A DNA stretch of 64,000 nt. Source: Acidimicrobiales bacterium (GTDB taxonomy: Bacteria > Actinomycetota > Acidimicrobiia > Acidimicrobiales > SHLQ01). The position numbers and the translations under genes are program-made. The notes beneath the pieces were generated by a model. The model ran no database searches. It was not told where the DNA came from and saw only the letters and a program-made list of their open reading frames with translations. Where the stretch lies: the NCBI GenBank assembly GCA_020628865.1, contig JAHDEJ010000002.1, positions 62,001 through 126,000 of the forward strand. Direction: 5' to 3'. Positions 6,498 to 56,088 of this stretch are shown one piece after another. Position 1 is the first letter of the stretch; each line of letters starts with the position of its first letter.

Positions 6498-8960
6498 GTG
6501 GGTACAACACGATTGACGACGTTGCCGGGATTGGACCGGATCGGAACCACGAGCGCTGACGGCGCCGCCGGGACGATCAGCCTGATCATCGGTCCGGGGG
6601 GAAGCGGCAAGACCCGTGTCCTCGACGACCTCGCCGCCCGTGGCGCCGATCGAGGCCACCGTGCACTCGTGTTGGCCGGCTCGATGGTCGGCACGCCGCT
6701 GGCCATTCCCGACACGGTCGAGGCAGATGTCCTTCTCGTCGACGACGCCCATTTCCTCGACGCAGCAGAGACCACCGAACTCCTGCGGCTCGTCGAAGAC
6801 CGCAGCCGGTCCTTCGACATCTGCGTCGCGATGCGCCCGATTCGTGAGCACCTCCTGCTCGGACGGCTCGTCGAAGTCGCCGAGCGCCGCGGCACGCTCA
6901 TCGAGCTCGGCCCCTTCTCCGACGACGAACTGGCCGGTGCGCTCGCCGAGCACGTCACCGACGGCGTCGACGGCGCCGTCTTCGACAAGGTGCGCGAGCT
7001 CACCCATGGTCAGCCCCTCATCGTCGACCGCCTCGTGTCCGGCTGGATGACCGACGGACGCATCGAGCGTGGCCGGCTCGTGGCCGAACCGGACCCGGCG
7101 CCCGTCGCCCTCGAACGAGCCCTGCTCGGGCCCGTCCGTCAGCTCGATGAAGCGGCTCGCCACCAACTCGCCGCCCTCGCCCGGACGACCGTGGACCAGC
7201 CGAACGGCCACACGAGCCCCGCGTTCGACCAAGATCCGACCCAGCTGATCGACCACGGCCTCGTCGGTGCGGACGGCATGCCCCCGGCGGTGGCGCACAC
7301 GGTGCTCCGCCTCCTCTCCCCCGCCGATCTCGCAGCCGGCGAGCTGCTGCTCGCCGAGACCCTCGCTCGGGGCGGCGCCACGCCGCTCGAGATTGCGGAA
7401 CGCTTCTGGGGCACCGCCGAACCCGGCCAGAACGCCACCGCAGCGTGGATCGCCGCCGGCGACGAGCTGCTCGCCACCGATCCGGCCGCTGCGGCGGAAT
7501 GGTACGGCCGAGCCAACCAGACAGAACCAACCTCGGACACGCTGGCACGACGGGCCGTCGCCCTGGCCGCTGCCGGGGACGGCGCGGGCGCCAACCACGC
7601 CATCGCCGACGTGCTCCGCCAGGACCCCCGCAACGCGCTGACCCTCGGCGCCGGCGCCCAGCTGGCAGCCGGGCAGGGCCGCTGGGACGAGGCGGCCGAA
7701 CTCCTCGAAGCGATCGACCATCATCCTCGCTGGCCGCTCGGTCTCGTCGATGCGCTCAACGACGCCACCCTCCTGCTCTCCGGGCGGACCGCGTCCACCT
7801 CGACCAGCAACGCCGGGGCCGACCCGACCGCTTCGCTGGTGCAGGAAGCCGTCGATGCGCTGCGGCTCTCCCTCGAACACATCCCGGACACCACCGCCCT
7901 CACGGACTCCATCCGGGCGCTGGCCACCCGAGCGGGCGACGTGAACGTCACGCCCGACCTTCCGGTCAACCCCTTCGAGATCGGCGCAGCCACTGCGTTG
8001 GCGGCAGGCGAACTCGCCATGGCCGATCTCCTGCTCGATGCTGCCGGAAGCTCCGTATCCGGCAACATCGGGGCGGCGTTGCACGACTGGCTCTCGGTCA
8101 GAGCCGGTGGCACGCCGTCACGTTCGGACCGGGGCGACTCGCTCGCCGAGTCCCCCTATGTCGGCCTGCTCGACCTGGCCGCCGACGCCGTCGACGCTCG
8201 CCGGGCCGGCGACGTGGCCGCAAGCTCCGCTGTGCTGGACAAGCTCCGGCAGGTTGTTGCGCTCGCACCGATCGATGCGCTGACCTTCGACGCTGCCAAC
8301 GAGCTGCTGATCCTCGCAACTCGATTCGGTTCCCGAACGGTGGCCGAGACGCTGCGCCAACGGGTCCTGCGTTTCCTCGCCGATGCCGGCGCTCCGCCCC
8401 TGTGGACGGCCCGCTATCTGTGGTCGCGGATCGAGACGGCTGCCGCCATCCGAGACGTGGACATGGCGAACGAGGCGGCGACGGAGCTGAAGGAGCTCGG
8501 ACCAGTCGGGTCGCGGCTCGACCCGCTCATCACCGCCGCCACCACCTGGGTCGAGATCCTCGAGGAGCGTTGCACCGTCGTCGACGTCAAGGCCGCTGCA
8601 GCCGAGCTCGAGACCAACGGATACCAGTGGGAGGCCGCGCACCTCGTCGGTCAGGCGGCCATCCGCATGCAGAACGCAGCGGAAGCCAAGGACCTGCTCA
8701 ACCACGCTCGAGAGCTTCGGGGCACCACGGCGAGCCCGAGCGGAACCGAAACGGCAAGCCCGTCCGGGCTCTCCGACCGGGAAATCGAGGTCGCCGAGCT
8801 GATTCTCGATGGGCACTCCTACAAGGAGATCGGGTCCCGCTTGTTCATCTCCGCCAAGACCGTTGAGCACCACGTGTCGCACATCCGACGCAAGCTCGAC
8901 GCAACCGGCATCCCCCGGGCCGCCTTCCTCGCAGCACTGCGCAGCGACCTCGGTCGCTGA
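6498..8960 (+). CDS. Large ATP-binding LuxR-family (LAL/STAND-type) transcriptional regulator
   Basis: An 820-residue cytoplasmic regulator. The N-terminal NTPase has Walker A GPGGSGKTR (about residues 33-41) and a Walker B-like VLLVDDAHF. A long alpha-helical Ala/Leu-rich middle resembles TPR-type sensor repeats. The C-terminus is a LuxR/GerE helix-turn-helix (about 757-817) beginning LSDREIEVAELI and including SAKTVEHHVSHIRRKL. The gene converges on the dynamin-like operon, 3 bases from its last stop. In mycobacteria a large AAA/LuxR-type protein (Rv0339c, IniR) lies beside iniBAC and controls it; this is from memory. The shared layout makes this gene the prime candidate for the locus regulator. 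Its binding site is not proven. Confidence 0.9.
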   Translation: MGTTRLTTLPGLDRIGTTSADGAAGTISLIIGPGGSGKTRVLDDLAARGADRGHRALVLAGSMVGTPLAIPDTVEADVLLVDDAHFLDAAETTELLRLVEDRSRSFDICVAMRPIREHLLLGRLVEVAERRGTLIELGPFSDDELAGALAEHVTDGVDGAVFDKVRELTHGQPLIVDRLVSGWMTDGRIERGRLVAEPDPAPVALERALLGPVRQLDEAARHQLAALARTTVDQPNGHTSPAFDQDPTQLIDHGLVGADGMPPAVAHTVLRLLSPADLAAGELLLAETLARGGATPLEIAERFWGTAEPGQNATAAWIAAGDELLATDPAAAAEWYGRANQTEPTSDTLARRAVALAAAGDGAGANHAIADVLRQDPRNALTLGAGAQLAAGQGRWDEAAELLEAIDHHPRWPLGLVDALNDATLLLSGRTASTSTSNAGADPTASLVQEAVDALRLSLEHIPDTTALTDSIRALATRAGDVNVTPDLPVNPFEIGAATALAAGELAMADLLLDAAGSSVSGNIGAALHDWLSVRAGGTPSRSDRGDSLAESPYVGLLDLAADAVDARRAGDVAASSAVLDKLRQVVALAPIDALTFDAANELLILATRFGSRTVAETLRQRVLRFLADAGAPPLWTARYLWSRIETAAAIRDVDMANEAATELKELGPVGSRLDPLITAATTWVEILEERCTVVDVKAAAAELETNGYQWEAAHLVGQAAIRMQNAAEAKDLLNHARELRGTTASPSGTETASPSGLSDREIEVAELILDGHSYKEIGSRLFISAKTVEHHVSHIRRKLDATGIPRAAFLAALRSDLGR

Positions 8961-8963
8961 GGC

Positions 8964-10442
8964 TCAGCCGGCGGCAATCGTCGCAAACAGTCCTTCGCAG
9001 GTCCGCACCGCCACTCGGGCCGCGGACGCCATCGGACGGGGCGACAGCGGGCTCTCGGCCCGCTCGCGCCACTTGCCGAGTTCTTCGAGCACGGCCGCCT
9101 TCTGCTTGTCGGGACCGGAATCCTCCGGTAGCCCGAGCCGACGGTTCACCTGGGTTCCGGATGCGCCGAGGAGCCGTTCCAACTCGGCAAGGCCGTCGCC
9201 GGCGATGTTGAGACTCCCCGAGCGAATGTCGTTGAGTACTCGTAGCTCGGTGAACTCATGGGCGCCGGCGATCGTGCGCTCGATCCGAGCGTCGAGGGCG
9301 TCCGACGTTTGATGTTCGGCCACCAACCGCTGCATGGCGAGGAGCGCCGAGCGCGCCTTCAACGTGTCTCGGCGGGCACCGAAGACATCGAAGAGCGTGC
9401 CTCGGAGCTGATCGATTCCACTCTCCACCCGCAGCATCGACGCCAGGCCCGCGGTGGAGCCGACATCGCCGGTGCGAATCGAGTGGACGGCGAGACGGAC
9501 CCCGAAGAGCCCGAGCCGATGCAGCAGCGCCCGACGCTGGGCCTCGTCGAGGCCGATGTCGGTCGGTGCATTCACGAACCGATCGGTCGTCAACATCAGC
9601 CGGTCGGTTTCGGCCTCTGAGGCCTCAGCCAGCTTCACCAGGCGGCGGTATTCGAGTTCACGCAGCCCGGTCCCCGCCTGGGCAAGGAGCCCGGCCACAG
9701 GAATCACGGTCTGCACCAGGCGCCGAAGTCGCGGGTCGTCGCCGTACCGTCGGGCGATGCGCGCGGCCGAGCTCATGGCGTCGAGGCGGCCCACGGCGAC
9801 CTCGTCGGCCCGGGAGAGCACGGCGACGCAATTGATCGGCGACGGTTGTGCGTACTCGTCCTCGTGGAAGCTGTGCAGAAACGACACGTCCGTGGCGTGC
9901 AGGTGCCGCAGGAGGTAGATGACCGCGTCGGACGGTGTCGACTTCTCGTCGTCGGGCGCGAGGAAGCTGTGGCTTCGAGCGGAGATGTCGGTGGACACGG
10001 ATGCGATACCCGGTGTGTCGATGAGGGTCATCTCTTCGAGGGTCTTGACCGGCCACTCGACCGTGAGCCGTTCGATCTTGGTGATGTCCCGCTCGCCGAG
10101 GTCGACGTCGATGGCGCCGTCTTCCCGCTCGAACGGGAGCTGCGCCGTGCTGCCATCGCGTCCGGTCATCTCGACCCGGTAGACGAGACCATGCTGGTAC
10201 CAGGTGACGAGCTTCGTGCACTCACCTGCATCGGTCGGGGCGAGTTCATCTCCGACGAGCGCGTTGAGGAGTGTCGACTTGCCGGCCTTGACCTTGCCCG
10301 CGATCGCCACACGAAGCGGCTGTTCGGCGCGGCTCGAGATCTCGGCGAGCTCCGGGGCCAACGATGGGACCTCCCTCGCAATCTGCTGACCCAGGTCCAG
10401 AACCTCGGTCAACAGGGCGGAGCGTCGTGGCATCTCACTCAT
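8964..10442 (-). CDS. Dynamin-family GTPase, IniC-like
   Basis: A 492-residue GTPase with P-loop GKVKAGKST (residues 49-57), a conserved Thr/switch region (GECTKL), G3 motif DTPGIAS near residue 141 and a G4-like LSRADE. The C-terminal half is helical, as in bacterial dynamin-like proteins, without an obvious membrane segment. Its ATG overlaps the stop of the preceding dynamin gene by four bases (ATGA), so the two are translationally coupled. The tandem pairing matches IniA/IniC of mycobacteria, where IniA is reported to mediate membrane fission. A heteromeric membrane-remodelling role is inferred from family and pairing. Confidence 0.9.
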   Translation of the reverse strand: MSEMPRRSALLTEVLDLGQQIAREVPSLAPELAEISSRAEQPLRVAIAGKVKAGKSTLLNALVGDELAPTDAGECTKLVTWYQHGLVYRVEMTGRDGSTAQLPFEREDGAIDVDLGERDITKIERLTVEWPVKTLEEMTLIDTPGIASVSTDISARSHSFLAPDDEKSTPSDAVIYLLRHLHATDVSFLHSFHEDEYAQPSPINCVAVLSRADEVAVGRLDAMSSAARIARRYGDDPRLRRLVQTVIPVAGLLAQAGTGLRELEYRRLVKLAEASEAETDRLMLTTDRFVNAPTDIGLDEAQRRALLHRLGLFGVRLAVHSIRTGDVGSTAGLASMLRVESGIDQLRGTLFDVFGARRDTLKARSALLAMQRLVAEHQTSDALDARIERTIAGAHEFTELRVLNDIRSGSLNIAGDGLAELERLLGASGTQVNRRLGLPEDSGPDKQKAAVLEELGKWRERAESPLSPRPMASAARVAVRTCEGLFATIAAG

Positions 10443-54963: not shown

Positions 54964-55047
54964 TCCACGCGTCGCCCGGACGACCTCGACTCCGGCCGAC
55001 GTCCGCGGCCGGATAGGGTGACGTTTCCCGAGCGATTGGAGGCAACC

Positions 55048-56088
55048 ATGGGCGACGAATACGCACCGCGTCTCACCCAGTTCAGCCACGGCGCCGGTTG
55101 AGGCTGCAAGCTCGCCCCGGGCGAGTTGGCGCACGTGGTGCGCCAGTTGGACAACGCCATTCCTCCTGAGCTGCTCGTGGGTGCCGCCACTGGCGATGAC
55201 GCCGCCGTGTGGCAGATCGACGCGGATCGAGCGCTCGTGGCCACCGCCGACTTCATCACGCCGGTGGTCGACGATGCGCGCACATGGGGCCGCGTCGCGG
55301 CAGCCAACAGCGTGTCCGATGTGTACGCCATGGGCGGCCGTCCGCTGTTCGCCCTGAACCTTGTCGGCTGGAACGTCGAGGCGCTCCCCACCGAGCTCTT
55401 GGGCGACGTCCTCGCCGGTGGGCAGGACATCGCGACCGAGGGCGGGTTCTTCGTGGTCGGCGGCCACACGATCGACGACCCCGAGCCGAAGTACGGGATG
55501 ACGGTGATCGGCGAGGTCCACCCGGATCGCATCCTCACCAACGCCGGCCTACGCCCCGACCAGGATCTCATTCTGACCAAGCCGCTCGGGGTGGGCGTCA
55601 TCACCACGGCGATCAAGGCTGATGTGGCGACCGCAGAGACGGCACAGGCGGCGATCGACTCGATGACGATGCTCAATGCCGAGGCCGCCCGCATCGCCGT
55701 CGACGCCGGGGCCACCGGCTGCACCGATGTCACCGGCTTCGGGCTGCTCGGGCACCTCGGCCGCATGGCGGTGGAATCCGGCGTGCAGTGCACGGTGGAA
55801 TTCGACGCCCTGCCGTTCCTTCCAGAGGCGATCGCCCACGCAACCGACGGGATCATGCCCGGCGGGAGCCGGCGAAACCTCACCAACGGGCTCCAATGGC
55901 TCGACGACGGTGGACACGACGAGCTCCACCAGTTGATGGTCGCCGATGCGCAGACCTCGGGCGGCCTGGTGTTCGGCGTGGACCCGGAGCACACCGAGTC
56001 CGTGCTTTCGCAGCTGTCCGCGTCCGGCCACACCGCTGGTCGGATCGGCCGCACAGCCGCCGGAGAGCCCGGTTTCCTTCTGCGCTGA
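55048..56088 (+). CDS. selD: Selenide, water dikinase with in-frame UGA (selenocysteine) at the active site
   Basis: A 346-residue SelD making selenophosphate from selenide and ATP. The ATG at 55048 has GGAGG six bases upstream. The frame continues to 56088 through a single TGA at 55099-55101 (codon 18). The context SHGAG-UGA-GCK aligns with SHGAGCGCK of E. coli SelD, so the UGA replaces the catalytic Cys and is probably read as selenocysteine. Downstream, DDAAVW, VSDVYAMGGRPL and VGGHTIDDPEPKYG are typical SelD motifs. Ordinary gene calling would start wrongly after the UGA. It implies selenocysteine machinery (selA, selB, selC) elsewhere in the genome. Confidence 0.95.
55111..55145 (+). promoter_or_regulatory. 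Candidate bacterial SECIS element in selD
   Basis: Two adjacent hairpins follow the UGA. CTCGCC-CCG-GGCGAG spans 55111-55125. A perfect 8-bp stem TGGCGCAC-GTG-GTGCGCCA spans 55127-55145. The second has a G at the start of its apical loop, 33 bases after the UGA, within the usual bacterial SECIS distance. Which hairpin SelB would use is undetermined. Confidence 0.55.

Follow-up and report, generated by a model that had tools for sequence, protein, structure and literature searches.

The selD gene found in the window (the whole stretch of 64,000 nucleotides that was analysed, from an Acidimicrobiales bacterium) almost certainly encodes a selenocysteine-containing selenophosphate synthetase, as judged from its sequence and that of its relatives, and the same genome carries at least 12 further genes with UGA at a redox position. 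Read directly, the selD frame opens at the ATG at 55048-55050, and translation meets only one in-frame stop before the end of the gene, a TGA, around which it reads MGDEYAPRLTQFSHGAG-U-GCKLAPGELAHVV. The gene and its TGA had been reported in an earlier note, the coordinates of which proved exact to the base, and the ribosome binding site described there corresponds to a Shine-Dalgarno-like GGAGG (Table 1). When the UGA is translated as an amino acid, the product matches the curated models TIGR00476 (365.3 bits, cut-off 125) and PRK00943 (355.6 bits, cut-off 299) and has both an AIRS and an AIRS_C domain. Residues 4-334 align with the solved structure 3u0o (251 bits), and residue 18 falls on its catalytic Cys, the position that the earlier note had proposed. 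The catalytic motif, SHGAGUGCK in the window and SHGAGCGCK in 3u0o, has the GAG-(C/U)-xxK form of the family. When the whole window was scanned for coding potential, the selD TGA ranked first among in-frame TGAs with coding-like flanks.

Table 1. Features of selD in the window, and genes elsewhere in the genome with UGA at a redox position
Feature	Position	Strand	Basis or remark
selD, selenide,water dikinase (selenophosphate synthetase)	55048..56088	+	346 aa, predicted Sec at codon 18
Putative Sec UGA codon, catalytic position of selD	55099..55101	+	aligned to Cys of 3u0o
Shine-Dalgarno-like GGAGG, 5 nt upstream of selD ATG	55038..55042	+	read directly
True stop codon of selD, also TGA	56086..56088	+	frame read directly
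Hairpin 1, putatively accessory, CUCGCC-CCG-GGCGAG, between UGA and hairpin 2	55111..55125	+	pairing across relatives
Hairpin 2, putative bSECIS core	55128..55144	+	covariation, synonymous-codon shuffles, chance scan
fdhA, CNRTUH at catalytic position	contig C62 (L062) 7569-9695	-	Fdh-alpha family
BCP-type peroxiredoxins, two genes			TPGU; TPLU
Peroxiredoxin-like protein, one gene			WUPYC
TlpA/ResA-like proteins, four genes			WUPTC; WUPNC; WUPFU; WAPYUGC
TlpA-like WUPFU	contig C105:80353-80661 (L153)	+	active site with two in-frame UGAs
AhpD-like proteins, three genes			CPTU; CHYU; CVYU
SelW-like protein, one gene			YCVPU

A SelD with exactly one TGA was present in 31 of 78 related genomes, the genome under study being counted among them. 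All 31 have a tRNA-Sec above the gathering score, and TGA-selD is absent from each of the 22 genomes among the 78 that lack tRNA-Sec. When the UGA site was aligned, TGA was found in 24 of 26 loci and TGC in the other two. A collection of 80 named loci, mainly from Acidimicrobiales and Ilumatobacteraceae assemblies and overlapping partly with the genomes of the first set, gave TGA in 69 of the 74 readable loci and TGC in five. The earlier note had drawn attention to the conserved surroundings of the UGA; in these relatives the stretch leading up to the codon is conserved, as is the UGA, with TGC in the exceptions, and the codon is therefore not there by chance. It has two properties by which bacterial selenoproteins are recognized, namely that it stands at the Cys of homologues and that it is kept among relatives. 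Four genomes (G002, G012, G015 and G072) have a tRNA-Sec with no SelD match, for which assembly gaps may be responsible.

Two hairpins follow the UGA, and both were also predicted independently. Hairpin 2 has a 7 bp stem (GGCGCAC/GUGCGCC, extendable to 11 bp) closed by a triloop GUG at 55135-55137, a GU(N) loop 33 nt downstream of the UGA. The published bSECIS model calls for a stem of 4-16 bp, a loop of 3-9 nt, a distance of 16-37 nt from the UGA, a G in the first two loop positions and an energy of -7.5 kcal/mol or lower (PMC13188914); hairpin 2, with its GUG loop, its spacing of 33 and an energy of -12.9 kcal/mol, falls within these rules. Of the 1473 TGA triplets in the window, 11.8% are followed by a hairpin obeying the same rules and 1.8% by one as strong as that of selD, and none was found after the selD stop codon. 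Across 24 sequences, the 13 pairs of the two hairpins were paired in 92% of cells, as against 32-51% when the partners were slid, and seven pairs had changed on both sides, with 25 double-change cells versus 6.4 in shuffles. Hairpin 1 taken alone was paired in 88% of cells, three of its pairs having changed on both sides.

Folding of the whole region was not exceptional against dinucleotide shuffles (z -1.57), but such folding is uninformative in GC-rich DNA, so synonymous-codon shuffles were used; as the region is coding, the null model for hairpin 2 was synonymous recoding with each gene's own codons. Among 24 Sec genes, hairpin 2 was stronger than this null in 20 (p<0.05), and neither of two Cys genes reached that level. 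In the named collection, z<-1.64 was reached by 49 of the 69 Sec genes and by none of five Cys genes. For the selD of the window the corresponding value is only p = 0.038, and the case for hairpin 2 rests on the family and not on this gene alone. The comparison with Cys homologues of SelD, which the earlier note had recommended, thus places the UGA on their catalytic Cys and finds them without hairpin 2. Given the compensatory changes, the strength beyond synonymous recoding and the absence from Cys homologues, hairpin 2 is very likely a bacterial SECIS. It could be argued that it instead follows from the encoded peptides (LAHVVR, LAQVLR) together with GC-rich codons, and that the real SelB signal lies elsewhere, for instance in hairpin 1, SelD still being a selenoprotein. 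Several hairpin bases are indeed fixed by invariant residues, hairpin 1 pairs in most sequences too, and four of the 24 sequences do not reach p<0.05; however, the excess over synonymous recoding in the remaining 20, not shared by the Cys genes, makes this explanation unlikely. A covariance model of the selD hairpins, searched against the genome, returned only selD itself at a meaningful score; the model is selD-specific and cannot reveal other selenoprotein genes.

The genome, a 113-contig assembly that is 96% complete with 3% estimated contamination, has all four components of the Sec-decoding trait, tRNA-Sec, SelA, SelB and SelD. A tRNA-Sec was found on contig C13 (65.1 bits, gathering score 47), with the anticodon TCA (UCA) assigned by ARAGORN, while selA and selB adjoin each other on contig C64. 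SelA scored 380 bits (cut-off 267.9) and SelB 298 bits (cut-off 242.25) against curated models, and SelB has the SelB-wing_3 winged-helix domain. selD, selAB and tRNA-Sec lie on separate contigs; in relatives TGA-selD and tRNA-Sec co-occur. It had been suggested that this organism very likely makes selenocysteine, and that the absence of selB and tRNA-Sec would overturn the suggestion; both genes are present, and together with the adjacent selA they support it. A gene for the selenouridine enzyme MnmH/SelU was sought in the genome and not found, and no selenouridine trait was detected; the main selenium output is therefore probably Sec for SelD and at least 12 other redox selenoproteins.

The expectation that other UGA-containing genes exist in this genome was likewise confirmed. 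Searches of four families (Fdh-alpha, AhpC-TSA, CMD and Rdx) recovered 12 further genes outside the window, each with UGA on a redox position, several of them assigned on family match and motif position alone (Table 1). With selD this gives 13 genes and 14 UGA codons, a minimum, since only these four families were searched. Next to fdhA are encoded an NADH-binding (Nuo51-like) subunit and, as a protein of its own, an Fe-S subunit with a Molybdop_Fe4S4 domain, and 18 nt downstream of the fdhA UGA lies a GGUCU loop, the loop of E. coli fdhF. The U of the TPGU peroxiredoxin aligns to the Cys of the STPGCT motif in solved BCPs, that of the CHYU AhpD-like protein aligns to the second Cys of the solved 3c1l, and the WAPYUGC protein corresponds to NF041054 (501 bits); the CVYU match (contig C18) lies below the Pfam cut-off. 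In the WUPFU protein the two U residues would make the active site a UxxU motif. No second convincing UGA gene emerged when the window and the surroundings of tRNA-Sec and selAB were scanned for coding potential. As a control, the AhpC-TSA matches listed for relatives without tRNA-Sec contained no TGA in any of ten genomes, and those listed for relatives with tRNA-Sec included at least 31 TGA-containing genes in at least nine of ten genomes; 18 of these genes were inspected, and all had UGA at the catalytic position.

These results also bear on how the UGA is read. UGA read-through without Sec is known in nature, and a near-cognate tRNA, or reassignment of the codon to, for example, Trp or Cys, might in principle serve here without selenium. 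Against this, selD itself terminates with TGA, the in-frame TGA of each of the 12 further genes coincides with a redox-active Cys position, AhpC-TSA TGA genes track tRNA-Sec in relatives (among the matches listed), and hairpin 2 is kept in TGA forms only, and we regard such a reading as extremely improbable. That translation really ends at this UGA, or that the codon is a sequencing error, the gene being broken or its product starting at TTG55126 (320 aa), finds some footing in a mechanical ORF from that TTG and in selD being single copy in the genome, but it can practically be dismissed, as the truncated form would have lost the catalytic residue together with the conserved HGAG-x-GCK segment, the genome encodes the Sec machinery, and the same TGA recurs in the 31 genomes and 69 collection loci noted above, many of them independent assemblies, an independent conservation that refutes a sequencing error at this codon.

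Reading the UGA as Sec, we propose a scheme that builds on what is seen directly (the gene, the UGA position, the machinery, the conservation, the covariation of the hairpins and the lack of hairpin 2 in Cys forms) and from which SelB binding, Sec insertion and catalysis are inferred. SelD is predicted to convert selenide and ATP to selenophosphate, which SelA would use to turn Ser-tRNA-Sec into Sec-tRNA-Sec. SelB would then bring the charged tRNA to ribosomes at UGA55099, recognizing the hairpin downstream, and Sec would be inserted there in place of termination, while at the final UGA, without such a hairpin, translation would stop. The synthesis of SelD would thus depend on its own product, a loop known from other bacteria.

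selD is an ordinary, known selenoprotein gene, yet it reveals that Sec is a possible meaning of UGA in this genome, and it pointed the way to a selenoproteome that comprises at least 13 genes and whose size is more notable than selD itself. Selenoprotein-rich organisms have been defined as those with six or more selenoprotein genes, and 78% of those surveyed are anaerobes (PMC5029168); the present genome, with at least 13 UGA genes, lies above that threshold. Acidimicrobiales are not among the lineages named as selenoprotein-rich in the accessible text of that survey, and in literature searches of incomplete coverage no paper joined selenoproteins with Ilumatobacter, and a single paper brought selenocysteine and Acidimicrobiia together, in passing. 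We hold it to be an evenly balanced proposition that this genome and the Acidimicrobiales close to it form a selenoprotein-rich lineage of actinobacteria that has so far gone unnoticed, one that employs Sec in a range of enzymes handling peroxides and disulfides (BCP peroxiredoxins, TlpA/ResA-like proteins including UxxU, AhpD-like and SelW-like proteins) and probably does so in the presence of oxygen, even though the majority of selenoprotein-rich bacteria known are anaerobic. Should the organism be aerobic, it would be a counter-example to the view that selenoproteins are rarely kept by aerobic bacteria (PMC13188914). Where gene prediction takes every UGA for a stop, these antioxidant enzymes would be cut short or overlooked, and the redox biology inferred from such assemblies would consequently be wrong.

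FdhA is given as the most widespread bacterial selenoprotein and Sec-SelD as the second, found in 383 organisms, in PMC5029168. Sec-SelD is thus well known, and the window gene is a further example of an arrangement already described: it shares with the Sec-SelD of other bacteria the family, the Sec position, a bSECIS (here putative) just downstream within the coding sequence and the need for SelA, SelB and tRNA-Sec, and it differs in its lineage, Acidimicrobiales, and in its particular hairpin pair. That pair is common to the Acidimicrobiales relatives and Gemmatimonadetes loci. The SelD of the latter (L118-L136) is 50-55% identical to that of the window, and its gene shares the UGA and closely resembles the window gene in the hairpin region, a likeness across phyla for which horizontal transfer is possible. 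E. coli SelD (3u0o) is homologous over the aligned residues and has Cys17 where the SelD of the window has its predicted Sec. Fusions of an NADH-dehydrogenase-like protein with SelD are also known (PMC4561486) and have the SelD domain in common with the window protein; those in relatives are about 735 aa long, of the Cys form and about 30% identical to the Sec-SelD of the window. In the same-genus genomes G004 and G006 (L143, L144), in which the fusion sequence was read, and in G005, G007, G009 and G010, the fusion replaces free Sec-SelD, and tRNA-Sec was detected in all of them except G007. Within one genus, free Sec-SelD seems to have been exchanged for a Cys-type fusion SelD.
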